A stretch of 64,000 bases of DNA from an uncultured Prevotellaceae bacterium (GTDB lineage: Bacteria > Bacteroidota > Bacteroidia > Bacteroidales > Bacteroidaceae). The notes below the pieces were generated by a model, which worked only from the letters and a program-made list of their open reading frames with translations, searched no databases and had not been told where the DNA came from. The stretch is taken from positions 28,735 through 92,734 of the forward strand of contig CACYPF010000009.1 in NCBI GenBank assembly GCA_902776195.1. Reading direction: 5' to 3'. Below are positions 10,736-63,807 of this stretch, one piece after another; position 1 is the first letter of the stretch; the number at the start of each line of letters is the position of its first letter. The position numbers and the translations under genes are program-made.

Positions 10736-10770
10736 GGACTATAGGAACTATAGGAACTATAGTAACTATA
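10735..10770 (+). repeat. Four 9-bp units between spmAB and the flippase gene
   Basis: GGGACTATA, GGAACTATA, GGAACTATA and GTAACTATA follow each other at 10735-10770, starting at the last base of the upstream stop codon. The array sits in the 50-base gap between two co-directional genes, so it is probably transcribed. Confidence 0.85.
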
Positions 10771-10785
10771 ATAAATAAAAAAAAT

Positions 10786-14399: not shown

Positions 14400-16298
14400 T
14401 TATTTCTTTTTCCTTGGTTTGCGGATAGCCCATCCCTCCTCGCTGAAGTCGGGGACCTCCCCTTTTAGTTTCATTGACTTGGGATTGAGGAACTGCATCC
14501 ATTCGTCCTTGGAGTAGTGCTTCTTGGTTTCTCTAGTATCCCTAGTATCTCTAGTGTTCCTAGTTTCCCTAGTATTCCTAGTTCCCCTAGTCCCCCTAGT
14601 TTCCCTAGCCCCCTTAGCTCCGCCCTCTTCAGCATCATTGCAGCGAACGTCGCGCCCTTTGTATTTCTGACCATTTACATACTTCATCACACGAGGGGCA
14701 TCCTCCTCAGGAACCTCGAAATAGGACATCATGGTCAACAGGTCGATATGTCCGACCTCAACATGCCCTTTCACGTTCTTATTCAGGAACTGCATCAACT
14801 CACCAGGGTAGAAGCCGTCTTTCTTGCCTAAGTTGATGAACAATCGGCGATAGCCAGCTTCAGCCTTGCGGGGACTGTTGCCACGCTCCCGCTTCTCGCC
14901 CCGCTTGCCACGCTCCCGCTTCTCACCCCGTTCCCGTTTGTTGCCGACAGGTTCTATCTCCGGGGCATCAGCGTAGTAGGCAAGGAACCGACCGAACTCC
15001 ATGGAAACGATCTTCTTGATAAGGTCCTCCTTGTCGATATACTCAAAGTAACGGTCGATGTCCTGCATGAAGGGCGCAATCTGCTCCTCGTCGACATCCG
15101 CCTTGACAATCTGGTCCATCACCTTATAGAGCTGTTTCTTGCAAATCTCCTCGGCAGAGGGGATCTTTCCCTCCTCGAAAGCCTTGCCAATCTCTTTCTC
15201 GATATTGCGGATCTTATGCTTCTCACGGGAGTGGACGATGCTGAGAGATGTTCCTTTCTTACCGGCACGACCGGTACGGCCAGAGCGGTGGGTGTAGTTC
15301 TCGATGTCATCAGGGAGTCCGTAGTTGATTACATGAGTCAGGTCATCAACGTCCAAGCCGCGTGCTGCCACATCAGTAGCAACCAGCAACTGAACGGTAT
15401 GCTGGCGGAATTTCTGCATCGTCAGGTCACGTTGCTGCTGTGACAGGTCACCATGCAGTGCCTCGGCATTATAGCCGTCGCGAATCAGTTTGTCGGCAAC
15501 CTCCTGTGTCTCCAGCTTCGTACGGCAGAAAATGATGGCGAAGATGCGGGGGTAGAAGTCTACCAGCCTTTTTAAAGCTAAATACTTGTCTTTCGCATTC
15601 ACCATATAATAGATATGGTTCACATGTTCGGCACCCTCGTTGCGGCTTCCCACCACGATCTCCTTATAGTCATGCAGATACCCTTTGGCGATACGCTCTA
15701 TCTCCTTACTCATCGTAGCGGAGAAGAGCAGTGTGTTACGCTCTGTGGGCACTCCTTCTAAAATAGCGTCGATACTCTCGGAGAAACCCATGTTCAACAT
15801 CTCATCGGCTTCATCAAGTACCACGTTATTCACATCATCTAACTTGGCGACCCCACGGTTCATCAAGTCAATCAGTCTGCCCGGTGTTGCCACTATTACC
15901 TGTACACCTTTCCGCAATGCACGGATCTGCTGCTCAATGGACGCGCCACCATACACAGCCTCGATATGCACTCCTTCAAGATACTTGGAGAAGTCGCGCA
16001 GGTCGTCAGCAATCTGCAGACACAGCTCACGGGTTGGTGCAAGAATGAGAGCGTGGGGCAGTCCTCTTCCTATCTCTCCCATCTGTGGACGGGGCATGGA
16101 GGCTATCTTCTGCAAGACAGGAATACCAAATGCAGCCGTCTTACCCGTTCCTGTCTGGGCAAGGGCGATAACATCATTCTGATTACCAAGTAAATAAGGG
16201 ATAACTTCCTCCTGAACGGGCATAGGCTGTACAAAACCCAATTCCTCAATAGCGCGTCGAATCTCTTCGCAAACGCCTAACTCTTCAAATGTCTTCAA
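14400..16298 (-). CDS. deaD: DEAD-box RNA helicase, DeaD/CsdA-like
   Basis: A 632-residue ATP-dependent RNA helicase for ribosome assembly and mRNA unwinding. Motifs in order: Q motif (GFVQPMPVQ), I AQTGTGKT, Ia PTRELC, II LDEADEML, III SAT, V TDVAARGLDVDD, VI HRSGRTGRAGK. Residues about 490-565 (YRRLFINLGKKDGF onward) form a DbpA-type RNA-binding domain as in DeaD. Between them lies an Arg/Glu/Gly-rich stretch, and after the RNA-binding domain comes a low-complexity tail of TRG/TRN/TRD/TRE tripeptides from a 9-bp repeat. The promoter at about 16330 has a TACCTTTG box. Confidence 0.93.
   Translation of the reverse strand: MKTFEELGVCEEIRRAIEELGFVQPMPVQEEVIPYLLGNQNDVIALAQTGTGKTAAFGIPVLQKIASMPRPQMGEIGRGLPHALILAPTRELCLQIADDLRDFSKYLEGVHIEAVYGGASIEQQIRALRKGVQVIVATPGRLIDLMNRGVAKLDDVNNVVLDEADEMLNMGFSESIDAILEGVPTERNTLLFSATMSKEIERIAKGYLHDYKEIVVGSRNEGAEHVNHIYYMVNAKDKYLALKRLVDFYPRIFAIIFCRTKLETQEVADKLIRDGYNAEALHGDLSQQQRDLTMQKFRQHTVQLLVATDVAARGLDVDDLTHVINYGLPDDIENYTHRSGRTGRAGKKGTSLSIVHSREKHKIRNIEKEIGKAFEEGKIPSAEEICKKQLYKVMDQIVKADVDEEQIAPFMQDIDRYFEYIDKEDLIKKIVSMEFGRFLAYYADAPEIEPVGNKRERGEKRERGKRGEKRERGNSPRKAEAGYRRLFINLGKKDGFYPGELMQFLNKNVKGHVEVGHIDLLTMMSYFEVPEEDAPRVMKYVNGQKYKGRDVRCNDAEEGGAKGARETRGTRGTRNTRETRNTRDTRDTRETKKHYSKDEWMQFLNPKSMKLKGEVPDFSEEGWAIRKPRKKK
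14533..14617. repeat. 9-bp CTAG array in the helicase C-terminal tail
   Basis: CTAG recurs at 14533, 14542, 14551, 14560, 14569, 14578, 14587, 14596 and 14605, exactly nine bases apart, with a degenerate tenth unit. Read on the minus strand it gives TR plus one variable residue per unit. CTAG is usually a rare tetranucleotide, so nine copies in 76 bp are notable. Confidence 0.9.
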
Positions 16299-29891: not shown

Positions 29892-30389
29892 TTAGTCATG
29901 ATTAAATATTTCCAATGCAGCCGATCTGGTGACATTCTTGGCGAGAAACCGCTCAAAAGCCATACCGAAATGGTCCCAGCGGTACTCCGCCACCACATAT
30001 TTCCCGTCTGTCGTGCGTTCGAGGCTCCTGATAAGTCCGTCCTTGAAACGGAAGTCCTCTAAGATGCCTCCTAACTTGGAACCGAGCCAGAGGGGACGCA
30101 CCAGTCCGTGGTAGTTCTTGAAGATAAAGAGTCTGTGCCCTTTCTCCTGATAGTAACGGGTGCTCTTGATGACACCCACCATCGCATCGATACTGCCGTC
30201 ACCATCCACATCCCCTGTGCAGAACCGGTAAACGGGGTATGGCAGTCTCCATTTATCATAGGTCGAGTCGGTCTTCAGCGACAGAAACGACAGTGTGTCA
30301 TTCTTCTGCTCCAGGGAGAACCTCTGCCCCAAAGCATAGGTGGCAACCAGCCAGCACCCTATTGTCAATAACCACTTCTCACCTCTCAC
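29892..30389 (-). CDS. Secreted protein with an EF-hand-like Asp motif
   Basis: A 165-residue product not assigned to a known family. Hydrophobic N terminus (WLLTIGCWLVATYALGQ) fits a signal peptide. The motif GDVDGDGSIDAMVG (about residues 58-71) has the DxDGDGxxD pattern of FG-GAP/EF-hand-like calcium loops. The likely start is a GTG at 30389 that lies inside a heptanucleotide array (30380-30407), whose minus-strand units AGAGGTG offer a purine-rich ribosome-binding-like stretch. It is 17 bases after the TlpA-like gene and 15 before DUF3160. Confidence 0.6.
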   Translation of the reverse strand: MRGEKWLLTIGCWLVATYALGQRFSLEQKNDTLSFLSLKTDSTYDKWRLPYPVYRFCTGDVDGDGSIDAMVGVIKSTRYYQEKGHRLFIFKNYHGLVRPLWLGSKLGGILEDFRFKDGLIRSLERTTDGKYVVAEYRWDHFGMAFERFLAKNVTRSAALEIFNHD

Positions 30390-30407
30390 CTCTTACCTCT
30401 CACCTCT
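30380..30407. repeat. Four-unit CACCTCT heptanucleotide array
   Basis: CACCTCT, CACCTCT, TACCTCT, CACCTCT at 30380-30407. It spans the stop of the TlpA-like gene and the start of the next. Four-unit arrays of the same heptamer lie at 40514-40541 and 58822-58849. Confidence 0.9.
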
Positions 30408-31549
30408 CAAAGCAGACTTCTGATCTCTGCCTCCAGGTCCTTCACCTGAGCGGCTCTCTTATAGAGGGCGTTGTCTCTGCTGATGAGGAAATAGTCTGGC
30501 AGTCCTTGTATGTTATAGGTAATGAGTGTCTGAGAGTCCAGTCCCTGCGGGTCACGTACACAGACCCATGGCAGTGCGGCGGTCTGTTGTTTCCAGAAGT
30601 GCTCGTCAGGATCCAGTGATACCTGATAGATCTCCAGTCCCTGTGCCTGATACTTATTATATAGTTCACGCAACAGGAGAATACGCTCTGGTGATTTCTC
30701 TATACCGAACAGATGGAAATCGAGGATAACCACTTTTCCCTTCAGGTCACTTAACTTACGCATCTGTCCCTTGTTGTCAGGCAGAACAATGTCTATCAGT
30801 CCGGTGGCGGAAATCTGGTTCACGTCAATGGTGCGTGCCTCGTTCTGTGCTGCGATACGTACATTCTTCATCCCCTCGATGGCGATGTTATGTAGGTTGG
30901 CACCACGCTCAGAACCAGGATAGTAGGTGTCCCAGCTGGTGGCGACAGCAGCGAAGAGCTTGATGTCGTCCTTGTCAGAGCGGGGATTGAAGATCAGTGT
31001 GTTCCCTAATGCCTGGAACAGGGCGAAATAGGCATACGAGCGGTTGGGCTCCTTGAGGATATAGTTGGTCTTCACGTCCTGTTTGTATGCCTTGATCATG
31101 TTCAGGATGCTGTCATTCGACTCGTCGACGCTGAGGGCGTCATTCTGTGAAATGGCGATGGCACGCTGTGTCAGGTTGATCTGTTTCAGGGTCAGCTCCT
31201 TGATCTTCGAGCAGTTGTCGGAACCACTGATCTCATACTGGGTAGCCATCTGCGGATATTGTGCCTTGACGGTAACGGTCTCGGTAGAGTCGATGCTCAC
31301 ATTGATGATCTGGTCGGCAATACGCAGGCGGTAGAACTCCGGGGCTGGTGTCTGCTCCTTAGAAAAAGAGAACGCACCATCCTCGTCCAGTTTCACGGAG
31401 TCGACGACAGCAATGTCCTCCAGTCCCACATTCTCGAAATAGAGTACGGAGTCCTTGGCATTGGTGATATTTCCCTCTACATGGAATTTTTTCTCACTAC
31501 ATGATGCCATAGCTAATGTGGCGATGGCAGCTATCAGATACTTTCTCAT
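30407..31549 (-). CDS. DUF4369/TlpA-like lipoprotein without the CxxC pair
   Basis: A 380-residue lipoprotein (lipobox MASC). Residues about 20-115 are a DUF4369 domain (KFHVEGNITNAKDSVLYFEN), and about 245-375 a thioredoxin fold (LPDNKGQMRKLSDLKGKVVI). Where TlpA has WCxxC, this protein reads DFHLFGIEKSPER, with no Cys, so it should not act as a thiol oxidoreductase. The later GLPDYFLISRDN keeps the cis-Pro region. Role unknown; an envelope-stress or binding function is possible. First gene of a run that continues through 29892, DUF3160 and capA-like genes. Confidence 0.82.
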   Translation of the reverse strand: MRKYLIAAIATLAMASCSEKKFHVEGNITNAKDSVLYFENVGLEDIAVVDSVKLDEDGAFSFSKEQTPAPEFYRLRIADQIINVSIDSTETVTVKAQYPQMATQYEISGSDNCSKIKELTLKQINLTQRAIAISQNDALSVDESNDSILNMIKAYKQDVKTNYILKEPNRSYAYFALFQALGNTLIFNPRSDKDDIKLFAAVATSWDTYYPGSERGANLHNIAIEGMKNVRIAAQNEARTIDVNQISATGLIDIVLPDNKGQMRKLSDLKGKVVILDFHLFGIEKSPERILLLRELYNKYQAQGLEIYQVSLDPDEHFWKQQTAALPWVCVRDPQGLDSQTLITYNIQGLPDYFLISRDNALYKRAAQVKDLEAEIRSLL

Positions 31550-37421: not shown

Positions 37422-39686
37422 ATGAAAAGATTAATTCTGGTGCTGCTGATGGGTACGGCAATGACCGTGCAGGCAGTGGAGATGGACACACTGAAGAGTG
37501 TGGAGTTGCAGGACGTGCAAGTGGTGTCTGTGCGTGCCACGAAGAAAACACCTGTCGCTTTTGTTAACGTGGGCAAAGAGCAGTTGAAGGCGGTCAACTA
37601 TGGTCAGGATGTGCCTTACTTGTTGTCGCTGACTCCTTCTGTGACCATGACGAGTGACGCAGGTAACGGTATCGGCTATACTTCAATCCGGGTACGTGGA
37701 ACAGACCCTACCCGTATCAACATCACCGCCAACGGCATCCCGATGAATGATGCCGAGAGTGCAGGACTCTACTGGGTGAATATGGGTGATTTCGCCAGCA
37801 GTGTGCAGTCCATGCAGATACAGCGCGGTGTGGGTACCTCTACCAATGGTGCCGGTGCCTTTGGCGCTACTATCAATATGCTGACTGAGAATATCGGTAT
37901 CGACCCGTTTATCGGCATCGACCTGAGTGCGGGCTCTTACTATAGTCATAAAGAGACTGTGCGCTTCGGCACAGGACTGCTGGGTGGTCACTGGGGCATT
38001 CAGGGTCGTCTTTCGAACATCGGTTCGAAAGGTTACCTCGACCGTGCATCCACAAAGCTGAACAGCTATTTCCTGCAGGCAGGGTGGTTTGGCGACAACA
38101 CCGTGGTGAAGTTCATCACGTGGAATGGTGTCGAGGAGACCTACCATGCGTGGAACTACACGTCAAAATACGAGCAGTCGCTCTATGGACGTACCTACAA
38201 CTCATGCGGTGAGTACTACGACGAGCAGGGCAACCGCCACTATTATGACGACCAGACGGACAACTACCATCAGCAGAACTACCAACTCATCTGGAACCAG
38301 CGCCTCACGAATGAACTGAAGCTGAATGCGGCACTGCATTACACCAAGGGGCACGGCTACTATAATGAGTACAAGACGAAACGTACCCTCTTCGAGTATG
38401 ACCTGGATCATGCGATGACATGGGCGAAAAGCGACCTGGTGCGCAAGAAGACAATGGATAATGACTTCTATGGTGTCGTGGCTTCGCTGACCTATGATAA
38501 CAAGAAGAACCTGCATGCCATCTTAGGAGGAGGCTGGAACAAATACGATGGTGACCACTATGGTCTCATTCCATGGGTGAAGAATCCTGTGGATGAGCTG
38601 TTTCCTGACCATCGCTACTACGACAATAACACGAAGAAGACTGACTTCAATATTTACGGCAAGGTAACCTACGACCTGCTGCCTGGTCTGAATGCCTTCT
38701 TAGACCTGCAGTACCGTCATATAGGTATCAAGATGAACGGTCCTACGGACGAGATAGACTGGACAGTCAACAAACGTATTGTCTATGACATCCAAAAGTC
38801 GTACGACTTCTTCAACCCGAAGTTCGGACTGAACTATGACATCACACAGAACCATAAGGTGTATGCGTCGTATGCTATCGCCCATAAGGAGCCTGCCCGT
38901 AACAATTTCGAGAATAACAACAATGCAGGACTGGAGATGCCTAAGACGGAGAGACTGAACGACCTGGAGGCAGGCTACAAGTTTCAGTCAAGACATTTCT
39001 CTGCGGGAGCCAACCTCTACTGGATGGACTACAAAGACCAGTTTGTGCTGACGGGTGAGATAGACAAGATCGGTGAGGCGATCACACGTAACATGCCCAA
39101 GAGCTACCGCATCGGTGTGGAACTGGAAGCGGCATGGAAACCTGTTGACTGGTTCCGGTGGGATGCTAACGCCACCTTGTCGAAGAACCGTGTCAAGGAT
39201 ATCACTGTACAACTGACTGACGGTAGCGTGGCAGACCTGGGTACTCAGCCGCTGGCATTCTCTCCAGACTTCCTGCTGAACAATATCCTGACTTTCTCCT
39301 ACTGCGGTTTCAAGGCTTCTGTACAGAGCCAATATGTCAGTGATCAGTATCTGACCAACACTGGTATCAAGAGTTACCAGACACTTGATGACAACGGCAA
39401 ACCTGTAGATGTGGGTATGATGTTGGAAGGACACTTCAACACGAATCTCGACTTGTCCTACAACTTCCGCCTGCCCAAGGTCGGTGTGAAGGATGCCACC
39501 ATCGGTGTGACCCTGTACAACCTCTTCTCGGCAAAATACGATAACAACGGATGGGCGGCACCTGCCTTTACCAAGGAGAATGGGAAGGTGATAGCTACGG
39601 GTTGGAGTGACTCCGACCAGTATGAGGCAGGCTTTGCGCCGTCGGCACCCTTTAACTTCATGGCTCACTTGTCGGTGAACTTTTAA
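37422..39686 (+). CDS. TonB-dependent receptor for thiamine
   Basis: A 754-residue outer-membrane receptor. Signal peptide ends at TVQAVE; the plug domain begins DVQVVSVRATKKTPVAFVNV and includes GIGYTSIRVRGTDPTRIN; the barrel ends with FNFMAHLSVNF, a typical terminal strand with Phe. There is no carboxypeptidase-like domain. Thiamine as substrate is inferred from the TPP riboswitch just upstream and from PnuT and thiamine pyrophosphokinase just downstream; this three-gene order is known in Bacteroides. Confidence 0.9.
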   Translation: MKRLILVLLMGTAMTVQAVEMDTLKSVELQDVQVVSVRATKKTPVAFVNVGKEQLKAVNYGQDVPYLLSLTPSVTMTSDAGNGIGYTSIRVRGTDPTRINITANGIPMNDAESAGLYWVNMGDFASSVQSMQIQRGVGTSTNGAGAFGATINMLTENIGIDPFIGIDLSAGSYYSHKETVRFGTGLLGGHWGIQGRLSNIGSKGYLDRASTKLNSYFLQAGWFGDNTVVKFITWNGVEETYHAWNYTSKYEQSLYGRTYNSCGEYYDEQGNRHYYDDQTDNYHQQNYQLIWNQRLTNELKLNAALHYTKGHGYYNEYKTKRTLFEYDLDHAMTWAKSDLVRKKTMDNDFYGVVASLTYDNKKNLHAILGGGWNKYDGDHYGLIPWVKNPVDELFPDHRYYDNNTKKTDFNIYGKVTYDLLPGLNAFLDLQYRHIGIKMNGPTDEIDWTVNKRIVYDIQKSYDFFNPKFGLNYDITQNHKVYASYAIAHKEPARNNFENNNNAGLEMPKTERLNDLEAGYKFQSRHFSAGANLYWMDYKDQFVLTGEIDKIGEAITRNMPKSYRIGVELEAAWKPVDWFRWDANATLSKNRVKDITVQLTDGSVADLGTQPLAFSPDFLLNNILTFSYCGFKASVQSQYVSDQYLTNTGIKSYQTLDDNGKPVDVGMMLEGHFNTNLDLSYNFRLPKVGVKDATIGVTLYNLFSAKYDNNGWAAPAFTKENGKVIATGWSDSDQYEAGFAPSAPFNFMAHLSVNF

Positions 39687-40267: not shown

Positions 40268-40887
40268 AATCACCTGATATCGTTATATTGGCAAATGGTA
40301 CGTTTCCTACGCATCCTATTCCCTTGGAGGTGTTGCGTCAGGCAGACAAGGTGGTGTGCTGTGACGGTGCTGTCAAGTCATTCCCCAATGCAGATGTCGT
40401 CATTGGTGACGGTGACTCTGTCCCCGTCATGTATCACGACCGTTTGATCAGAGTCGACGAACAAGAGGATAACGACCTGACGAAGGCAACGCGCTATTGT
40501 TTGAAGAACTTCTCACCTCTCACCTCTCACCCCTCACCTCTAAGAATCGCCTATCTGGGATGTACCGGTGGACGTGAAGACCATACCCTTGGCAATATCT
40601 CGTTGCTGGTGCGGTACCTGAGAGACTTCGGGGTGGAGGGTACGATGTATACCGACCACGGTACCTTTGTGCCTGCTCATGGTGACCAGACCTTTGAGAG
40701 TTTCCCCCGCCAGCAGGTCAGCATCTTTAATTTCGGCAGTTCTGTGTTGTCATCAGAAGGATTGAGATGGCAATGCTATCCCACAACAGAGTGGTGGCAA
40801 GGCACATTGAATGAGGCAACAGGTACTTCCTTCACCATCCATGCTGACGGCTACTATCTGGTATTCAGGACTTATCTTCCTAAATAA
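40264..40887 (+). CDS. thiN: Thiamine pyrophosphokinase
   Basis: A 207-residue enzyme converting thiamine to thiamine pyrophosphate. Motifs: CCDGAVKSFPNADVVIGDGD, DEQEDNDLTKA and LGCTGGREDHTLGNISLL. The ATG at 40264 is chosen; an open frame runs 30 bases upstream inside pnuT. Residues about 84-93 (SPLTSHPSPL) come from a four-unit CACCTCT array and are probably an insertion between the second and third motifs. Confidence 0.93.
   Translation: MKSPDIVILANGTFPTHPIPLEVLRQADKVVCCDGAVKSFPNADVVIGDGDSVPVMYHDRLIRVDEQEDNDLTKATRYCLKNFSPLTSHPSPLRIAYLGCTGGREDHTLGNISLLVRYLRDFGVEGTMYTDHGTFVPAHGDQTFESFPRQQVSIFNFGSSVLSSEGLRWQCYPTTEWWQGTLNEATGTSFTIHADGYYLVFRTYLPK
40514..40541. repeat. Four-unit CACCTCT array inside thiN
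   Basis: CACCTCT, CACCTCT, CACCCCT, CACCTCT. The same four-unit length occurs at 30380-30407 and 58822-58849. Here it is translated, adding a Ser/Pro/Thr-rich loop. Confidence 0.88.
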
Positions 40888-42682: not shown

Positions 42683-43687
42683 ATGGTAAAAAGGTGTTTA
42701 CCTTTTTGCTTCTTTGCCTTTTTACTTTTGTCCTGTGGTCCTGACGGGGACAAGTTCCGCTTGTCAGGTCGTCTGCGTAACATCAACCAAGGTGAGTTCT
42801 TGGTATACAGTCCTGACGGCGGTTTTGTAGGAATAGACACCGTCAAAGTGCGGAACGGTCGTTTCTCCTATGAGAAGGAGTTGCGTAATGTGGTGACTTT
42901 GATGATTGTCTTCCCTAACTTCGCGGAACAGGCTGTCTTTGCCACTCCCGGTGAGGAGGTGGAAATAAAGGGTGACGCTACTCATCTGAGAGAAATATCT
43001 ATCGAGGGAACAGATGAGAATGAGGACTTGACGGAACTTATGGCACGCATCAACAAACTCACTCCGCCGGAGGTTCCTGGTGCCATCGCCCAATTTATAG
43101 AGGAGAATCCCACTTCCATTGTCAGTATGTATCTGCTTGACAAATACTATATATCGTCAAAAACTCCAGACTATGTGGAAGCCCAGCGACTTGCGGTATT
43201 GATGTTGAAAGCTGATCCTGATAACGGAAGACTGCGCCGTTTGAAGAAACAACTCGATGGGTTGAAAAGCAGTAAGCTGCAAGCCACATTACCCGTTTTC
43301 TCTGCCACGGATTTCAGAGGCAGGAAATTCAACAGCAGTGAGATGAAGGGAAAGGTGGGTGTCATCACCACATGGGCATCATGGAACTATCCCAGCACGG
43401 ATATCCAGCGCAGGCTGCGTCGGCTCTGGCGGAAATATCCAACCTCACTCTCGTTGGTCAGTATCTGTCTCGATGGTGCGAAGAAAGAAGTTAAACAGCG
43501 TGTTGAACGTGATACCCTCGACTGGACGGTAGTTTGGGACGGACACCTTTTCCAAACTCCTATTGTTCAACAGTTGGGACTGTATTCTGTGCCTGCTGTG
43601 GTGGTGGTCAATCGCCAAGGTAAAGTGGTTGCCCGTGACCTGGAGCCTAACAAGGTAGAGGAAGAGATAGAAAAGTTGCTGAAATAG
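42683..43687 (+). CDS. DUF4369/thioredoxin-like lipoprotein without CxxC
   Basis: A 334-residue lipoprotein (lipobox LLSC). The ATG at 42683 is preferred to an in-frame GTG 36 bases upstream because it gives a normal signal peptide. An N-terminal DUF4369-like domain (FRLSGRLRNINQGEFLVY) precedes a thioredoxin fold. The active-site position reads TTWASWNYPSTD in place of WCxxC, so both Cys are lost; GLYSVPAVVVVNRQG keeps the cis-Pro region. It is the second such Cys-less protein in the window (the other at 30407-31549). Confidence 0.82.
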   Translation: MVKRCLPFCFFAFLLLSCGPDGDKFRLSGRLRNINQGEFLVYSPDGGFVGIDTVKVRNGRFSYEKELRNVVTLMIVFPNFAEQAVFATPGEEVEIKGDATHLREISIEGTDENEDLTELMARINKLTPPEVPGAIAQFIEENPTSIVSMYLLDKYYISSKTPDYVEAQRLAVLMLKADPDNGRLRRLKKQLDGLKSSKLQATLPVFSATDFRGRKFNSSEMKGKVGVITTWASWNYPSTDIQRRLRRLWRKYPTSLSLVSICLDGAKKEVKQRVERDTLDWTVVWDGHLFQTPIVQQLGLYSVPAVVVVNRQGKVVARDLEPNKVEEEIEKLLK

Positions 43688-43688
43688 T

Positions 43689-44183
43689 TTACACGTCAGG
43701 TTGGAAAAGTACTGTCTTTCCTGTTCTTAGTGATGCCGGCACGTCGATAAGCCGTTGGTTACTACTGCCACGGAATAACAGGCTTTCATCACGTAGTGAC
43801 TTGATAAAAGGTCCATCTACCAATACGTCAATCAATTCCAGTAATTGCCGTTGCCGGGGATTATGAAGCAGTGTCTCAAACGTGAACCCCGTGAAGCACC
43901 AGATATCCTTATCAGTACGTTCCCGGATGGCGCGGGCAAGTTCGGCAAACCCCTCCGGCTGGTACATCGGGTCACCCCCCGAGAACGTCACATTGGCGTA
44001 GGGGTCAGCCTCGATGATGCGCATGATCTGTTCTGTAGACATCGGGTGCCCGCCACTGAAGTCCCATGACTGCGGGTTATGGCAGCCGGGACACGCATGA
44101 CGGCAACCGGCACAATAGATAGAGGTCCGGAATCCCGGACCGTCTACCATAGTGTCTTCTATAATGTCTAATACAGAGATCAT
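43689..44183 (-). CDS. nrdG: Class III ribonucleotide reductase activating protein, second copy
   Basis: A 164-residue radical SAM protein. The cluster motif is CRHACPGC (residues about 26-33) followed by HNPQSWDF; SGGDPMYQPEG is the SAM-binding motif. Closer to the common NrdG type than the first copy. It follows nrdD2 after a 74-base gap filled with a decamer array, and is convergent with the lipoprotein gene one base away. Confidence 0.94.
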   Translation of the reverse strand: MISVLDIIEDTMVDGPGFRTSIYCAGCRHACPGCHNPQSWDFSGGHPMSTEQIMRIIEADPYANVTFSGGDPMYQPEGFAELARAIRERTDKDIWCFTGFTFETLLHNPRQRQLLELIDVLVDGPFIKSLRDESLLFRGSSNQRLIDVPASLRTGKTVLFQPDV

Positions 44184-44197
44184 GATTGTAGTTTTTT

Positions 44198-44262
44198 TCT
44201 AGAAAGTTCTAGAACGTTCTAGAATGTTCTAGAAATATCTAGATTGTTCTAGATTTTCTAGA
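44198..44262. repeat. Array of seven TCTAGA palindromes, 10-bp period
   Basis: TCTAGA occurs at 44198, 44208, 44218, 44228, 44238, 44248 and 44257: six starts exactly ten bases apart and the last nine. Most units extend to TTCTAGAA. The array fills the gap between nrdD2 and nrdG2, and its last copy includes the nrdD2 stop codon. It lies on one face of the helix and, in RNA, is a string of self-complementary units. Confidence 0.95.
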
Positions 44263-46492
44263 AGAGATTCTGCTGCTGAGAGCCCTCGATATGGGTCACA
44301 CGGTCGTTGAGCTCACAGAGCTTGCCGTGATTCCAGCGGTCAGTGGTGCCGACGAGGTATCCCGTGATACGCTGCAGCTTGTCGATATTGGTGCTGCCGC
44401 ATTTCGGACATTTCTCTAAGTGGGGTGTCGCATTCTCATAGCCACAGTCCATGCAGCGGTTGCGGTTGTGGTTGACGGAGCCGTAGCCCATATTCAACTT
44501 ATCCATCATATCCACTACACTCATGATGACCTGTGGGTTATGGGTGGCATCACCGTCAATCTCCACATAGAAGATATGACCGCCACGTGTCATCTCATGA
44601 TAAGGAGCCTCTATCTCAGCCTTATGACGGGCGGAGCACTTATAATATACAGGGACGTGATTGGAGTTGGTATAGTAGTCACGGTCAGTAACACCGGGGA
44701 TAACACCAAACTCCTTGCGGTCTTTCTTGGTGAACTTACCGCTCAGTCCTTCTGCAGGAGTAGCTAATACAGAATAGTTATGCTGGTAGCGGTCGCAGAA
44801 GTCGTTGACACGCTGGCGCATATAGCCGACAATCTTCAGTCCTAACTCCTGTGCCTCCTCACTCTCACCATGGTGCTTGCCGATGAGTGCCACTAGACAC
44901 TCGGCAAGTCCGATGAAACCGATACCTAAGGTACCTTGGTTGATGACACTCTCTATGGTGTCGTTAGGACTCAGTTTCTCTGCACCAATCCACAGACTAC
45001 GCATCAGCAAGGGGAATTGCTTGACGAAAGCGGTCTTCTGGAACTGGAAACGCTCATCCAACTGCTTGGCGGCAACTTCCAGCATCTCGTCGAGCTTGGA
45101 GAAGAACTTGGCGATACGCGCCTCCTTGTCTTGTACATCCATACATTCGATGGCAAGACGTACGATATTGATAGTGGTGAATGACAGGTTACCACGACCG
45201 ATAGAGGTCTTTGGTCCGAAACGGTTCTCAAAGACACGGGTGCGGCATCCCATCGTGGCAACCTCATGGAGATAACGCTTGGGATCATCGGCACGCCATT
45301 CACTATCCTGGTTATAGGTAGCGTCAAGATTCAGGAAGTTAGGGAAGAAACGGCGTGCCGTCACCTTGCAGGCGAGCTGGTAGAGGTCGTAGTTCGGGTC
45401 CTGCGGGAGGTAGTTGACACCTCTTTTCTTTTTCCATATCTGGATGGGGAAGATGGCGGTCTCGCCATTGCCCACTCCCTGATAGGTACTGTTCAGCAGC
45501 TCACGCATGATGCAACGTCCCTCGGCAGAGGTGTCAGTACCATAGTTGATGCTGGAGAATACTACTTGGTTACCCCCACGGGAGTGGATGGTATTCATAT
45601 TGTGGATGAATGCCTCCATCGCCTGGTGGACACGTCCCACCGTCTTGTTGATGGCATGCTGACGCACTCGGTCGATGCCCGTCAACTTATCGAGGGGTTG
45701 TTTGAGATAATCCATGAGCACCTCATCATAGAGCTTACTGTAATCCTCTCCGTTGAGGTCCTCCAATGCCTTCAGCTCCTCGATATAGGACAGACGCACA
45801 TAGGGAGCCAGATAGAAGTCGAAGGCAGGAATAGCCTGACCGCCATGCATCTCGTTCTGGGCACATTCCAAAGAGATACAGGCAAGGACGGCTGCCGTCT
45901 CAATGCGCTTGGCAGGACGGCTGGCACCATGACCGGCGATAAAGCCCTGTGTCAGGATATTGTCGAGGGGGTGCTGTACACAGGTCAGCGACTTGGTGGG
46001 GTAGTAGTCCTTGTCATGGATATGGATATAGTTATGCTCTACGGCATCACGGCTCTCAGGCGACAACAGGTAGTCGTCGACAAAGGGCTTGGTGCTCTCG
46101 GAGGCGAATTTCATCATCATACCGGCTGGCGTGTCGGCATTCATATTCGCATTCTCACGGGTGACATCGTTATTCTTGATATTGACGATGTCGAGAAAGA
46201 CATCACGTGTCTTTGCCTTACGGGCAATGGAACGCTGGTTGCGGTAAGCGATATATCGTTGTGCCACATCCTTACGGGCACTCTTCATCAGCTCCATCTC
46301 AACGGAGTCCTGAATCTCCTCCACCGTCATCTGGGTATTACCCTTGGCGGCAATACGGTCGGTAATGGTCTGCAACAAACGCTCATCTTCTCCCTTGTCC
46401 GTATGAAGCATCGCCTTACGGATAGCGGCCATGATTTTCTGTTCGTTGAATCCCACAATACGCCCATCGCGCTTTACAACAGTCTGTATCAT
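44258..46492 (-). CDS. nrdD: Anaerobic (class III) ribonucleoside-triphosphate reductase, second copy
   Basis: A 744-residue glycyl-radical enzyme. ATP-cone at the N terminus (VKRDGRIVGFNEQKIMAAI), zinc site CMDCGYENATPHLEKCPKC near residue 690, and radical motif RITGYLVGT near 715, followed by WNHGKLCELNDRVTH. It shares only the family motifs with the copy at 16543-18642 and is longer, so the two are ancient paralogues or of different origin. It begins 23 bases after the acyltransferase-like gene. Confidence 0.95.
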   Translation of the reverse strand: MIQTVVKRDGRIVGFNEQKIMAAIRKAMLHTDKGEDERLLQTITDRIAAKGNTQMTVEEIQDSVEMELMKSARKDVAQRYIAYRNQRSIARKAKTRDVFLDIVNIKNNDVTRENANMNADTPAGMMMKFASESTKPFVDDYLLSPESRDAVEHNYIHIHDKDYYPTKSLTCVQHPLDNILTQGFIAGHGASRPAKRIETAAVLACISLECAQNEMHGGQAIPAFDFYLAPYVRLSYIEELKALEDLNGEDYSKLYDEVLMDYLKQPLDKLTGIDRVRQHAINKTVGRVHQAMEAFIHNMNTIHSRGGNQVVFSSINYGTDTSAEGRCIMRELLNSTYQGVGNGETAIFPIQIWKKKRGVNYLPQDPNYDLYQLACKVTARRFFPNFLNLDATYNQDSEWRADDPKRYLHEVATMGCRTRVFENRFGPKTSIGRGNLSFTTINIVRLAIECMDVQDKEARIAKFFSKLDEMLEVAAKQLDERFQFQKTAFVKQFPLLMRSLWIGAEKLSPNDTIESVINQGTLGIGFIGLAECLVALIGKHHGESEEAQELGLKIVGYMRQRVNDFCDRYQHNYSVLATPAEGLSGKFTKKDRKEFGVIPGVTDRDYYTNSNHVPVYYKCSARHKAEIEAPYHEMTRGGHIFYVEIDGDATHNPQVIMSVVDMMDKLNMGYGSVNHNRNRCMDCGYENATPHLEKCPKCGSTNIDKLQRITGYLVGTTDRWNHGKLCELNDRVTHIEGSQQQNLF

Positions 46493-47738: not shown

Positions 47739-47754
47739 TTCGTCTAAGTGCATG

Positions 47755-47813
47755 CAAAGATAATAAAAAGTTTAGAGTTTAGAGTTTAAAGTTTAAAGTT
47801 TTTGCTACCTTTG
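47755..47813. promoter_or_regulatory. Divergent promoters separated by a heptanucleotide array
   Basis: Leftward -7 box TATCTTTG (47755-47762, minus) serves tRNA-Arg; rightward -7 box TACCTTTG (47806-47813) serves the MaoC-like gene. Between them are GTTTAGA, GTTTAGA, GTTTAAA, GTTTAAA and GTTTTTG (47770-47804). The array covers the place of both upstream boxes, neither of which has a clean TTTG, so repeat number could set promoter strength. Confidence 0.7.
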
Positions 47814-47837
47814 CAACAAATTTATAAATTTTAAACT

Positions 47838-50185: not shown

Positions 50186-50205
50186 AATATTTTGTTATTT
50201 CAATA

Positions 50206-58812: not shown

Positions 58813-58821
58813 AGATAAACT

Positions 58822-58849
58822 CACCTCTCACCTCTTACCTCTCACCTCT
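58822..58849 (+). repeat. Four-unit CACCTCT array after the U32 gene
   Basis: CACCTCT, CACCTCT, TACCTCT, CACCTCT, ten bases after the stop codon; unit for unit identical to the array at 30380-30407. Confidence 0.9.
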
Positions 58850-59488: not shown

Positions 59489-62419
59489 GTGTACAATAAT
59501 GTACCCGAAGGTGAGGCAAACACAGTATCTGTAAGCCAGAACAACTGGAATGAGAAGGCTGACGACAACACGAAGCTTGTCATTCCTGCTACTATCACTT
59601 TCTCTGTCAAAGGTAAAGACTTTGAGAATGTTGATATTGACAAGGAGGTAACTTTTGATGTTGTTGAAATTGATGACAACGGTTTCGCAAATCTCGACGA
59701 GCTGGCATCAGTTACTATCCCTGCTTCTATCAAGAAAATCGGAGAGTCTGCTTTCGCTGACGACTATGCACTGACTTCTGTACAGATTGCCACTGGCAGT
59801 AAACTGACAGAGATTGGAAATTATGCTTTCTCCGCATGGATCACTGAGAAGTTCGACCTTTCAAGTGCCACTTCTCTGACGACTCTGCCTGCGAAGCTTT
59901 TCCTTTCTGCTACTGCAGAACAGAATCCTTATGTGAAGGAAGTCGTACTGCCTGCAAGCATCACGGACATCAGCACTGCCCTTGCTAAACTGCCTAATCT
60001 GGAGAAAGTGAATATCACTGACACCAAGCTGGCATCTCTGGCAGTGGGTGCTTTGGAGGGCAACACCAAGATTACAGCCCTGGAGCTTCCCGCAACCTGT
60101 AAGACTATTGCAGACGGTGCTTTGACGAGCACTAAGGTTGCAGACTTGACCATCAATGCTTATCAGACAGATAATTCACAGTCTGTCGGTAAGGTTTATG
60201 GAGATGTTGCTGCAGACAAGAAAGTCCTGACCAAGTTGACTGTAAAGGGTGAGTTCAAGGGAACTATCGCTGCCAATGCTTTCAATGCTCTTGATAATCT
60301 TGCCGAAGTTAAGTTCGATGCAGTAAGCGGAACAATCACAGCAGGTGCATTCACCGCTAACCCCAAGTTGAATAAGATCACTCTTGGTGACGTGAAGGCT
60401 GGTGCTAATATCCAGGCAGCTTTCGCTTCTACACTTGTTGCTGGTGCTGACCTGAAGATTGGTAACATCGGTGCCGCTACTATCGCTGCTTCCGCATTCA
60501 CGGGTCTGAAGAGCGTGGAGATTGGTGATATCGCTACCACAACCGCTATCGGTGATGGTGCTTTCGCTGGTGCAAAACTCGCTACTATTACTGTAGGTGA
60601 CATCACTGGTAAGATCGGTGCCTCTTTCGCTTCTACTCTTCCTGCTGGTGCTGACCTGACGATTGAGGAGATTGGTGCTGACGCTCAAATCGCTGATGAT
60701 GCATTCACGGGTCTGAAGAGCGTGGAGATTGGTGATATCGCTGCCACTACCGCTATCGGTGATGGTGCTTTCGCTGGTGCAAATCTCGCTACTATTACTG
60801 TAGGTGAGATCACTGGTAATATCGGTGCCTCTTTCGTTTCTACTCTTGCTGCTGGTGCTGAGGTGACTATTGAGTCTATCGGTGAGGGCGCAAATCTCGG
60901 TGCTAACGCATTCAAGAGCATTAAGTCTCTGACGATTACTAATGGTATCAGCGCTGGTACTTTCGCAGCTGGCTCATTTGTATATGTTGATGCCAACAAC
61001 GTAACAGCAAATCTCGGTGCCATCAGTGGTGGTACATTCACTGCAGGCGCTATCACTGGTCCTACGACCGCTGGTAAAGAGTTGACTCTGACTATCGGTA
61101 ACGTTTCCGCTCCTCTGACTAACAATCTGGCTACCGGTAACATCAAGAAAGCTACCGTAGGTGAGATCTCCAAGGCTGTGTGTCTCGATGTGTTCGGTGC
61201 TGCTAAGGAAATCGTGTTCGGTGATATCAAGGAGGGTGGTTCTCTTACTGCGTTTGCTGCTGCCAACACCACTCTTGCTAAGGTTACCTTCGCCGCTATC
61301 GAGGTGGCTACCGGTATTACTGCTGACGCTTTCAACAATGCCACTATGCTCGCCACTGTAAACTTCAGCGGTCTGCTGGCTGATGGTGCTGTAGCTGCCA
61401 GTGCCTTCAAGACTGCTGGTTCTGCACTTGCTGCCGGTACCAATATGGTAGTTACTTACAAGCCAGCTGACGATCAGCTGACAAAGCCTTTCAATCAGGC
61501 TACTTTCGGTGCTTTAAGTGATCCGGTTAAGGTTACCCTGAAGACTACCCAGAAGTTCTTCGATAACTATACCGAGGCTGCTGGTGTTGTAACATGGTTC
61601 TACCGTACCACTGCAGAATTCTCAAAGGCTGCTGTTACGAAGACTATCAAGTTCGAGGGTGAGGTTGCTCCTGATGGATACAAGTATGCTCGCTTCTATG
61701 TCGCAAAGGATGAGAAAGCCGTATTCAACAAGGTTGATGGTGTGACAGCTTACTCTATCTACGTAGACGGTGAGGACATCTACATGAATCCGCTCCGTGT
61801 ATATGGTGGTAAGTATCAGATCAATGGTGTTTCTGCTATCCGTGCTGCCATTGTAGTGAAGTCTAAGTCTGGTGAGGATATCACTGTTACTATGAATCCT
61901 GATGAGGCTCCTACCAAGCAGTCTATCCAGAACGCAGATGATAAGTTCGGTATCCTCTACAACGATATGGCTACTGCTCTGACTGGTGCTAAGATTACCA
62001 TGGAGAATACTGCTTTCTTCAAGTTGACAGACGGTACTACTAGTGTTAACTGGGCTACTCTGCAGACCGATGCTAATTATGCAAACAACAATGCAATTGT
62101 ACTGCTTTCTAATCCTGCTAAGTCCAACTACATCCAGTTCGCAGACTTCGATCCTGAGACTCAGCCAACCGTTAAGATTGCTGCCGGTGGTTACTATCTG
62201 CTGACCAAGAAGGCTGCAACAGGCTCACGTCAGGTTGTATGGCTTGATGAGGATGGCAACACTACAGCTATCGAGAGTGTGAAGGTTGCTACTGAGGAGG
62301 CTGGTGAGATGAACGATGCCACCAACAATGCTACCTACAACCTCAATGGTATGCGTGTGAACAATACGAACCAGAAGGGTGTTTACATCAAGAACGGTAA
62401 GAAGTTCATTGTAAAATAA
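59489..62419 (+). CDS. BspA-like leucine-rich-repeat surface protein lacking a normal N terminus
   Basis: A 976-residue product of LRR_5-type repeats (LASVTIPASIKKIGESAFAD, GLKSVEIGDIA). The C terminus NATYNLNGMRVNNTNQKG then VYIKNGKKFIVK is the sorting-type ending common in Prevotella surface proteins. The listed start is a GTG; coding-like sequence continues upstream to 59432 (TYEGTIQDNLKGLKF) and stops at an in-frame TAA (59429). No signal peptide is present. The nearest ATG (59436) is in another frame and ends after eight codons. The 5' end may be truncated, frameshifted or switchable. Strong codon repetition in the middle comes from tandem duplication. Confidence 0.75.
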   Translation: MYNNVPEGEANTVSVSQNNWNEKADDNTKLVIPATITFSVKGKDFENVDIDKEVTFDVVEIDDNGFANLDELASVTIPASIKKIGESAFADDYALTSVQIATGSKLTEIGNYAFSAWITEKFDLSSATSLTTLPAKLFLSATAEQNPYVKEVVLPASITDISTALAKLPNLEKVNITDTKLASLAVGALEGNTKITALELPATCKTIADGALTSTKVADLTINAYQTDNSQSVGKVYGDVAADKKVLTKLTVKGEFKGTIAANAFNALDNLAEVKFDAVSGTITAGAFTANPKLNKITLGDVKAGANIQAAFASTLVAGADLKIGNIGAATIAASAFTGLKSVEIGDIATTTAIGDGAFAGAKLATITVGDITGKIGASFASTLPAGADLTIEEIGADAQIADDAFTGLKSVEIGDIAATTAIGDGAFAGANLATITVGEITGNIGASFVSTLAAGAEVTIESIGEGANLGANAFKSIKSLTITNGISAGTFAAGSFVYVDANNVTANLGAISGGTFTAGAITGPTTAGKELTLTIGNVSAPLTNNLATGNIKKATVGEISKAVCLDVFGAAKEIVFGDIKEGGSLTAFAAANTTLAKVTFAAIEVATGITADAFNNATMLATVNFSGLLADGAVAASAFKTAGSALAAGTNMVVTYKPADDQLTKPFNQATFGALSDPVKVTLKTTQKFFDNYTEAAGVVTWFYRTTAEFSKAAVTKTIKFEGEVAPDGYKYARFYVAKDEKAVFNKVDGVTAYSIYVDGEDIYMNPLRVYGGKYQINGVSAIRAAIVVKSKSGEDITVTMNPDEAPTKQSIQNADDKFGILYNDMATALTGAKITMENTAFFKLTDGTTSVNWATLQTDANYANNNAIVLLSNPAKSNYIQFADFDPETQPTVKIAAGGYYLLTKKAATGSRQVVWLDEDGNTTAIESVKVATEEAGEMNDATNNATYNLNGMRVNNTNQKGVYIKNGKKFIVK
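60494..60907 (+). repeat. 207-bp tandem duplication in the BspA-like gene
   Basis: The sequence from 60494 recurs from 60701 with few changes, a 207-bp (69-residue) period, beginning with AFTGLKSVEIGDIA in both. A more diverged copy precedes it. The duplication keeps the frame. Confidence 0.85.
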
Positions 62420-62851: not shown

Positions 62852-62960
62852 GAATGATCCACAATGAAAATCGCGGACTGTTCTTGCTCTGGCAAGCGAC
62901 TTCGTCGATGACCGAATGATCCACTTAACGACTTTTGTCGATGACAGCCTGATCCACTCC
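62852..62960 (+). repeat. Left repeat block next to the toxin gene
   Basis: Contains a 44-bp segment (62883-62926) identical to 63688-63731 and a degenerate copy of the 37-bp unit after it (GTCGATGACAGCCTGATCC, from 62937). A partial unit GAATGATCCAC is at 62852. Confidence 0.88.
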
Positions 62961-63025
62961 CTGTATTCTAAGGAATTCGCCAAAACACTGAATCTTGTAG
63001 TGCGGTGGGGGTCATTTCATATTGT

Positions 63026-63346
63026 CTATTTAACCCTCTTGACCAGGCTTGACGGTTCACGTCTCATGTCCCATACATCATCAATATATACAATGTCGTT
63101 CTCTGGTACATAATGGTAAACTAACTTGAAATTCTTTAGAACAACTGTAGACCTGAATCCTTCCTTGAAATTAGTTAACAGAGGTTCTATGAATCCCGTT
63201 AATGGATAATTTTCCAGACGTAATAATCGCTTAGAAACATTGTTAAAAAAATGTTTGGCTGCCTTCGCACCAAACTCCTCCTTAGAATATAATAATTGCT
63301 TTCTATATTCATTCCATGCTCTTTCAGTCCAAACTATCTGAGCCAT
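63026..63346 (-). CDS. RelE/ParE-family toxin
   Basis: A 106-residue toxin-like protein. WTERAWNEYRKQLLYSKEEFG is typical of the helical start (seen from WTERAWNEY), with RLLRLENYPLTGF, FRSTVVLKNFKLVYHYV and IDDVWDMRREPSSL at the end. ParE members block gyrase and RelE members cut mRNA; which applies cannot be told here. It overlaps the antitoxin gene by 13 bases and is the downstream gene, as is usual. Confidence 0.85.
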   Translation of the reverse strand: MAQIVWTERAWNEYRKQLLYSKEEFGAKAAKHFFNNVSKRLLRLENYPLTGFIEPLLTNFKEGFRSTVVLKNFKLVYHYVPENDIVYIDDVWDMRREPSSLVKRVK

Positions 63347-63600
63347 TCAAATTCTGTTTCTAATAGTTGATTTGCCTTATCTTTAGATATGATTTTGCCG
63401 TCTTTTACTTGCTCTAAGCTCATAGAGATGCGACTTTCCAGTTCTTCCAGAGTATATGGCGTAGTGTCTGAGACAGGAACAGGAATCTGAGAAGCCCGTA
63501 AGTTTTTGACATAACATAGAACTTTTGCTAACATTGATTCGTCATTTGCAAAAGAATCAATCTGTTGCACTAACTCCGTTTTTAATTGTATTGCCGTCAT
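63334..63600 (-). CDS. Antitoxin of the RelE/ParE pair
   Basis: An 88-residue protein starting MTAIQLKTELVQQIDSFAND, with an N-terminal helix-rich part and an acidic, toxin-binding C terminus (ISKDKANQLLETEFEWLR). No clear DNA-binding family is seen. The assignment rests on size, overlap with the toxin gene and gene order. Confidence 0.75.
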   Translation of the reverse strand: MTAIQLKTELVQQIDSFANDESMLAKVLCYVKNLRASQIPVPVSDTTPYTLEELESRISMSLEQVKDGKIISKDKANQLLETEFEWLR

Positions 63601-63620
63601 TATTTTTATGATTCCTGCTG

Positions 63621-63652
63621 CAAAGTTAAGTATTCTTTAGTAAACCTCCAAA
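63621..63652 (-). promoter_or_regulatory. Promoter of the toxin-antitoxin pair
   Basis: On the minus strand TTTG (63649-63652), 20 bases, TAACTTTG (63621-63628), about 20 bases before the antitoxin start. Confidence 0.8.
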
Positions 63653-63675
63653 TAATTCACAAAAAATTATCAAGG

Positions 63676-63807
63676 GAAAATCGGGGACTTGCTCTGGCAA
63701 GCGACTTCGTCGATGACCGAATGATCCACTTGGCAAAACGATTTCGTCGATGACCGAATGATCCACTTGGCAAAACGATTTCGTCGATGACTGCCTGATT
63801 TACATGA
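63676..63807 (+). repeat. Right repeat block next to the antitoxin gene, 37-bp units
   Basis: TTCGTCGATGAC recurs at 63706, 63743 and 63780, exactly 37 bases apart, each unit holding GAATGATCCACTTGGCAAAA or a variant. The first 44 bases (63688-63731) are identical to 62883-62926. There are no spacers between the units. Confidence 0.9.

Follow-up and report, generated by a model that had tools for sequence, protein, structure and literature searches.

The seven TCTAGA palindromes between nrdD and nrdG belong to a family of short tandem arrays dispersed through the source genome and patchily through the genus Prevotella. The unit of this family is 9 or 10 bp long and combines a conserved self-complementary core with a variable spacer; the cores are TCTAGA, CTAG, and CTATAG, with CTCNGAG and CCTAGG in other species. 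Arrays lie in gaps between genes and inside genes, are filtered by reading frame, change by whole units, and are replaced by other repeats at orthologous places; in a 464-kb sample, they occur only within transcription units. On balance, and by a modest measure, the nrd array is probably one of many dispersed, lineage-specific microsatellites with palindromic cores, a tolerated product of repeat growth in transcription units that passes a filter of reading frame.

The window is the whole 64,000-nt stretch of DNA that was analyzed, and it comes from a genome of 2.97 Mb (the source genome, G000). The features concerned are listed by window position.

44198..44262, no strand: TCTAGA array of seven palindromes (six spaced by 10 bp, then one after 9 bp), from motif positions and shuffles
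44257..44262, minus strand: off-phase unit holding the nrdD stop codon TAG, from motif position and gene call
44184..44257, minus strand: gap of 74 bp between nrdD and nrdG (RUG037, genome G166, has 0 bp)
44258..46492, minus strand: nrdD, anaerobic ribonucleoside-triphosphate reductase (Pfam NRDD and ATP-cone)
43689..44183, minus strand: nrdG, activating radical SAM protein (Pfam Fer4_12 and Radical_SAM)
10739..10762, no strand: related array, CTATAG at 9 bp, in a same-direction gap; TCGAAAT repeats stand there in RUG037
14533..14608, minus strand: related array, nine CTAG at 9 bp, in frame in a DEAD-box-helicase-like open reading frame and encoding a TRE/TRN/TRD repeat

Copies of TCTAGA start at 44198, 44208, 44218, 44228, 44238, 44248, and then 44257. 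An earlier note had described seven copies in exact 10-bp phase, which holds for six and fails for the seventh, a step of 9 bp. Its placement of the array between nrdD and nrdG is confirmed by the Pfam identification of both flanking genes, and the last copy does include the nrdD stop codon, with TAG inside the TCTAGA at 44257-44262. The sequence TCTAGANNNNTCTAGA occurs five times in the window; 100 dinucleotide shuffles gave 0.00 on average. Shuffles lead to an expectation of 16.2 TCTAGA; the window has seven, all within the array and none elsewhere in the 64 kb.

Similar arrays recur across the source genome. Adjacent TCTAGA pairs spaced at 10 bp number 40, versus 0 for the reversed pattern, and 51 of the 84 TCTAGA in the genome (the reversed hexamer is counted 319 times) sit in 11 arrays of 10-bp period with 40 spacers. 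Triples of CTAG number 110 versus 3 in the reversed control, and triples of CTATAG number 35 versus 0. The arrays repeat short units, within the 5-11 nt range, head to tail at many loci, but the units are not near-identical; the core alone is constant and spacers vary. Neighboring 10-bp spacers are 0.52 alike (n = 29) versus 0.44 between different arrays, which counts against plain slippage since that process should yield like spacers.

Unit length and location are associated in the source genome, as judged from crude gene calls that take the longest open frames and that, for some CTATAG arrays, disagree between two rounds. All 10 of the 10-bp arrays with at least three units are intergenic (the eleventh has two units) whereas 10 of 11 CTAG arrays at 9 bp are in frame inside genes (Fisher P = 3e-5; the Fisher tests reported here take arrays as independent). 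CTATAG arrays are divided between six intergenic and four coding locations. Units inside genes of the source genome are multiples of three, as expected of short tandem repeats, and the 9-bp period of coding arrays preserves the frame. In loci of relatives centered on search hits, all five period-10 arrays are likewise intergenic. CTAG arrays at 9 bp in those loci are more often intergenic than coding (18 versus 8), and this counts against the explanation that we favor.

The 464-kb sample has 16 arrays, nine in same-direction gaps and seven in genes; contigs C3 and C6 of the source genome were picked for holding arrays. These nine are distributed among 124 same-direction gaps of at least 20 bp, and none is found in the 55 divergent and 28 convergent gaps of the sample (9 of 124 versus 0 of 83; Fisher P = 0.012). 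On contig C17, at position 38990, a 10-bp array is between frames that the crude gene calls show as convergent. Although 7-bp arrays do occur in divergent or convergent gaps (6 of 20 in the same sample), the 9- and 10-bp arrays are absent from them, which counts against the favored explanation. An array of operators is expected in promoter regions, and here 7 of 16 arrays are in genes and none is in a divergent gap.

Translated, the coding arrays are runs of tripeptides read in two phases, as SS/TR or as LD repeats. The proteins that hold them resemble Era, ObgE, an ABC-F ATPase, an ABC transporter, a helicase with AAA_11 and AAA_12 domains and, judged by sequence, a DEAD-box helicase. The Era loop was compared in 20 of 23 relatives (a motif filter missed three): five have other low-complexity inserts there, one has a shorter insert, and 14 have a short loop. 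Genes adjoining arrays, where read, look unrelated in function. The DEAD-box-like gene of the window carries, at 14878-14930, a further 27-bp repeat that encodes GEKRERG units.

Stop codons are part of several arrays. In 5 of 10 arrays with 10-bp units, those following nrdD and adk and those at loci L008, L009, and L013, the TAG stop of the upstream gene is included; among the 330 called genes, 57 have a TAG stop and 2 end in CTAG. The adk stop lies in its array as TATAG, in phase, and units span the whole adk-obgE gap from stop codon to start codon. Among the 22 relatives listed for this gap, G013 also has a CTAG array.

Comparison of the nrdD-nrdG gap across related genomes, which the earlier note had proposed, revealed turnover. 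The rumen bin RUG037 has the highest NrdD identity to the source genome in a search that may omit the source genome's own record. There, the nrdG start comes right after TTCTAA, and no array is present. Other genomes have arrays with other cores in this gap: seven CTAG at 9 bp (L020), CTATAG at 9 bp in strain tf2-5 (L021), and five CTAG at 9 bp (L022). Two units are present in L023, and the remaining loci, among 64 of 80 nrdD-nrdG loci, have other repeats or none. The 9-bp arrays of L020 and L022 also show an 18-bp higher-order duplication.

RUG037 is itself rich in arrays, with 67 CTAG triples, and the period is 9 in all 50 places listed. Four of 17 of its array loci matched stretches of the source genome over at least 60% of their length, and among matched loci three coding arrays are common to the two genomes. 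The first has four units in one genome versus six in the other; the second has seven units, with both end cores mutated in RUG037; the third has nine units, with one version 18 bp shorter and mutated in an interior core. In two of these three orthologous pairs, the sister species differ in array length. Unit change among relatives, one part of what the earlier note had named beforehand as signs against its proposal, is present. The other sign that it named, a lack of further arrays of the type, clearly does not hold.

At other places, the two genomes have exchanged one repeat for another. A gap with three TCTAGA units in the source genome has TCGAA repeats in RUG037, between flanks that are 95% identical over 800 bp, and the gap at window positions 10736-10785 has CTATAG here and TCGAAAT in RUG037 (flanks 92%). 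Near the start of an open frame on contig C3 (L130:5192-5227), period-9 CTATAG in the source genome corresponds to CTAG units in RUG037; both genomes read through in frame, flanks are ~91.5% identical, and the stretch looks signal-peptide-like by eye. A decayed-looking stretch at window positions 50186-50205 corresponds to TCGAAAT units in RUG037. No clear target duplication is visible at arrays in alignments of the two genomes. Operators are expected to be retained at orthologous sites, and the nrd gap and three exchanged places depart from this expectation; three coding arrays are kept. That a different repeat occupies the same places in a sister species could also mean a selected role, against a neutral reading.

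Across 150 genomes of the genus, source genome included, 97 have triples of CTAG, CTATAG, or CTCNGAG, and 64 have at least 10 of one kind. CTAG triples are present in 87 genomes (0 to 231 each; reversed control 0 to 10, exceeding the forward count in some genomes, as in G108 with 0 forward versus 10 reversed and G038 with 0 versus 8), and CTATAG triples in 31 (0 to 113 each; reversed control 0). CTCNGAG at 9 bp occurs in eight of the 150 genomes (control 0), with 141 triples in G023, 59 in G127, and 0 in the source genome; G023, G127, G100, and G086 have CTCNGAG arrays amounting to 13 to 141 triples per genome. The 10-bp TCTAGA type is rare. Arrays of at least three copies are present in 2 of 120 genomes (29 triples in the source genome and 2 in G044), and also in G170, the genome of L023, which was outside the draw of 120. 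In G169, the genome of L022, 10-bp arrays at C11:4394-4437 have the core CCTAGG in place of TCTAGA. Since arrays are also found in records that bear no MAG label, those of tf2-5 (L021, the nrd gap), Prevotella ruminicola KHT3 (L037), and Hoylesella timonensis (L075), an assembly artifact of a single metagenome bin is excluded as the sole cause.

An association of palindromic cores with unit length was seen in a scan by period that presumed no core, which covered ~1.4 Mb of 15 genomes, with stretches of relatives chosen by the contig at hand rather than randomly, and which required four units sharing at least four columns. Palindromic cores were found in 13 of 27 arrays of period 9-10 versus 6 of 82 of period 7-8 (Fisher P = 1e-5). 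This contrast rests on the source genome, with 12 of 15 versus 2 of 24; three of its arrays that failed the palindrome test are CTAG or CTATAG arrays whose core was clipped by the scan. In the other 14 genomes, the counts are 1 of 12 versus 4 of 58 (P = 1.0), or 3 of 12 for period 9-10 when the two CTCNGAG arrays of G023 are counted (P = 0.09).

We suggest that arrays grow from a core-like seed that resembles CTAG, in many cases the TAG with which the upstream gene ends, through hairpin-helped slippage or template switching during DNA synthesis. Arrays would be retained where harmless, with tolerance as the main filter; tolerated sites would be gaps within operons, for units of 9 or 10 bp, and tolerant stretches of proteins, for units of 9 bp. 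On this view, the array in the nrd operon would act as a spacer, and any influence on the intercistronic mRNA would be a side effect at most. Among the three options offered by the earlier note, an operator array, an RNA structure, and replication slippage, the last is the best fit to the whole-unit changes in length, the in-frame 9-bp coding arrays, and the RUG037 gap without an array. Unbiased slippage leaves unexplained the palindromic cores at period 9-10 in the source genome, and no series leading from seed to array was seen within one species. Loss of the hairpin nuclease SbcCD was considered as a permissive factor and is unsupported. SbcD scored above the cut-off in 22 of 150 genomes, and array-rich genomes (at least 10 triples of some family) are 12 of these 22 versus 52 of the 128 others (Fisher P = 0.25); in the source genome the match to SbcD is weak.

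A role in mRNA is unlikely, though it is the alternative that fares best. Palindromes in the transcript would form a long hairpin that halts exonucleases or ribosomes and, as in REP sequences, controls how much upstream product is made relative to downstream product. Such a role would suit the finding that each of the 16 arrays in the 464-kb sample lies within a gene or in a same-direction gap, and also the different self-complementary cores in the nrd gaps of relatives, but RUG037 has no array at nrd. The nrd gap folds at -25.7 kcal/mol (z of -4.8), and 12 of 18 other arrays that were folded have z of -2 or below; the remaining six fold at z above -2, one of them at -0.5, and stems of 4 bp are weak. 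Folding is needed by a role in mRNA yet follows from symmetry anyway, so that z alone is no test among self-complementary repeats, all of which fold. Rfam models had no match to window positions 43600-44900 at gathering scores. An RNA structure at the nrd gap is possible, as folding predicts, and an effect on the ratio of NrdG to NrdD is putative.

Cooperative binding at many loci by a putative dimeric protein, a nucleoid or regulon factor with a species-dependent preference for palindromes, is quite unlikely. Conserved dyad cores with variable spacers would suit such a factor, as would the species-specific cores, with CTCNGAG abundant in G023 and absent from the source genome. Avoidance of CTAG elsewhere points the same way: the 464-kb sample has 134 CTAG versus a Markov expectation of 692, and arrays of at least three account for 51 of them. 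However, the array-free genomes G003, G004, and G042 are likewise poor in CTAG in the stretches sampled. Against binding sites are the seven arrays inside genes, the lack of any in divergent gaps, and the mutation of end and interior cores between sister species. An operator specific to nrd, as the earlier note had raised, is unlikely and was set aside; 11 arrays are spread genome-wide, similar ones occupy unrelated loci as well as coding sequence, with none in divergent gaps of the 464-kb sample, and RUG037 has no nrd array. Its suggestion that units fall on one face of the helix is doubtful as a rule, given that more arrays have period 9 than period 10: 21 of 31 in the source genome, 26 of 31 in hit-centered loci of relatives, and 9 of 10 in the named loci. 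The search for CTCNGAG, which allowed no period other than 9 bp, has no bearing on this question.

It is very unlikely that dyad-core arrays form a genome-wide Prevotella system inside transcription units, in which each lineage has its own core and a co-evolving reader acting at the protein or RNA level, and in which sister species have swapped families in place. Confinement of the palindrome contrast to the source genome makes such a system slightly less probable. Most improbable is the copying of micro-elements between places, whether REP-like units mobilized by a transposase or units made by a reverse transcriptase: one core does recur at 11 loci, some spacers recur (ACGT 6 and ACAA 5 of 40, either strand counted), and a sister species has a different repeat at the same place, but neither a fixed element length nor terminal repeats nor target duplications were noticed, and an array is not built of copies of one unit.

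Repeats of other kinds are present in the window. A 7-bp AGTTTAA array at 47767-47801 is in a divergent gap, just before a promoter-like TACCTTTG box that we take to be the Bacteroidetes -7 box, and is identical in RUG037; two 7-bp arrays of the window have 0 and 1 positions differing from RUG037. A 65-bp stretch of that divergent gap (47751-47815) is 95% identical to L023:8676-8740, where it is inverted relative to the flanks. CTCACCT arrays of 7 bp are at 30373-30409, 40511-40541, and 58820-58849, and 7-bp arrays are present at 21 loci of the 464-kb sample. Longer repeats are a 21-bp repeat, TTACTTACTGCCTTTTCATCA, with ~7 copies at 433-592, and, at 60420-60874 and 62897-63791, a 207-bp repeat (2.2 copies) and repeats of 33-37 bp.

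If the favored reading is true, a class of repeats with self-complementary cores invades operon gaps and conserved proteins, and its loss, change in length, and replacement are visible between sister species, making the origin of bacterial short tandem repeats testable by comparison. The findings also caution against taking single arrays for operators. If a factor reads the arrays, they would constitute a new genome-wide regulatory or chromosome-organizing code.

Within the literature covered, which includes few subscription papers, nothing was recognized as these arrays. Arrays of TTCTAGAA resemble eukaryotic heat-shock elements, and CTATAG resembles the ATAG sites of OxyR; we take both to be either coincidences or leads. 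Rickettsia palindromic elements also occur in frame inside proteins, and the arrays share with them in-frame palindromic repeats in proteins, but those are much longer single elements and these are tandem units of 9 bp. REP and BIME are intercistronic palindromes that form hairpins, where REP is an imperfect palindrome of 20-40 nt with a RAYT transposase in the genome. The arrays are similarly palindromic, intercistronic, and hairpin-forming; unlike REP, they lack a 20-40 nt unit and are present in coding sequence. REP sequences are named in PMC8040213. Closest among the described kinds found is the class of TAACTGA-type heptamer direct repeats (MacGregor 2015, PMC4679880). These are short tandem units that are dispersed, lie mainly between genes and in many cases immediately ahead of a start codon, are patchy by species, with some close relatives lacking them in the corresponding gap, and are also found in five Bacteroidetes. 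The arrays are alike in being tandem, dispersed, patchy, and absent at the same gap in some relatives; those repeats are 7 bp and not self-complementary, whereas here units are 9 or 10 bp with a self-complementary core, a variable spacer, and a core that depends on species. Long simple sequence repeats of 5-11 nt, as described in that paper (Mrazek et al. 2007, via PMC4679880), share the range of unit length and the tendency for multiples of three to be likeliest in genes; the description consulted does not mention a self-complementary core joined to a variable spacer, as in the present arrays.
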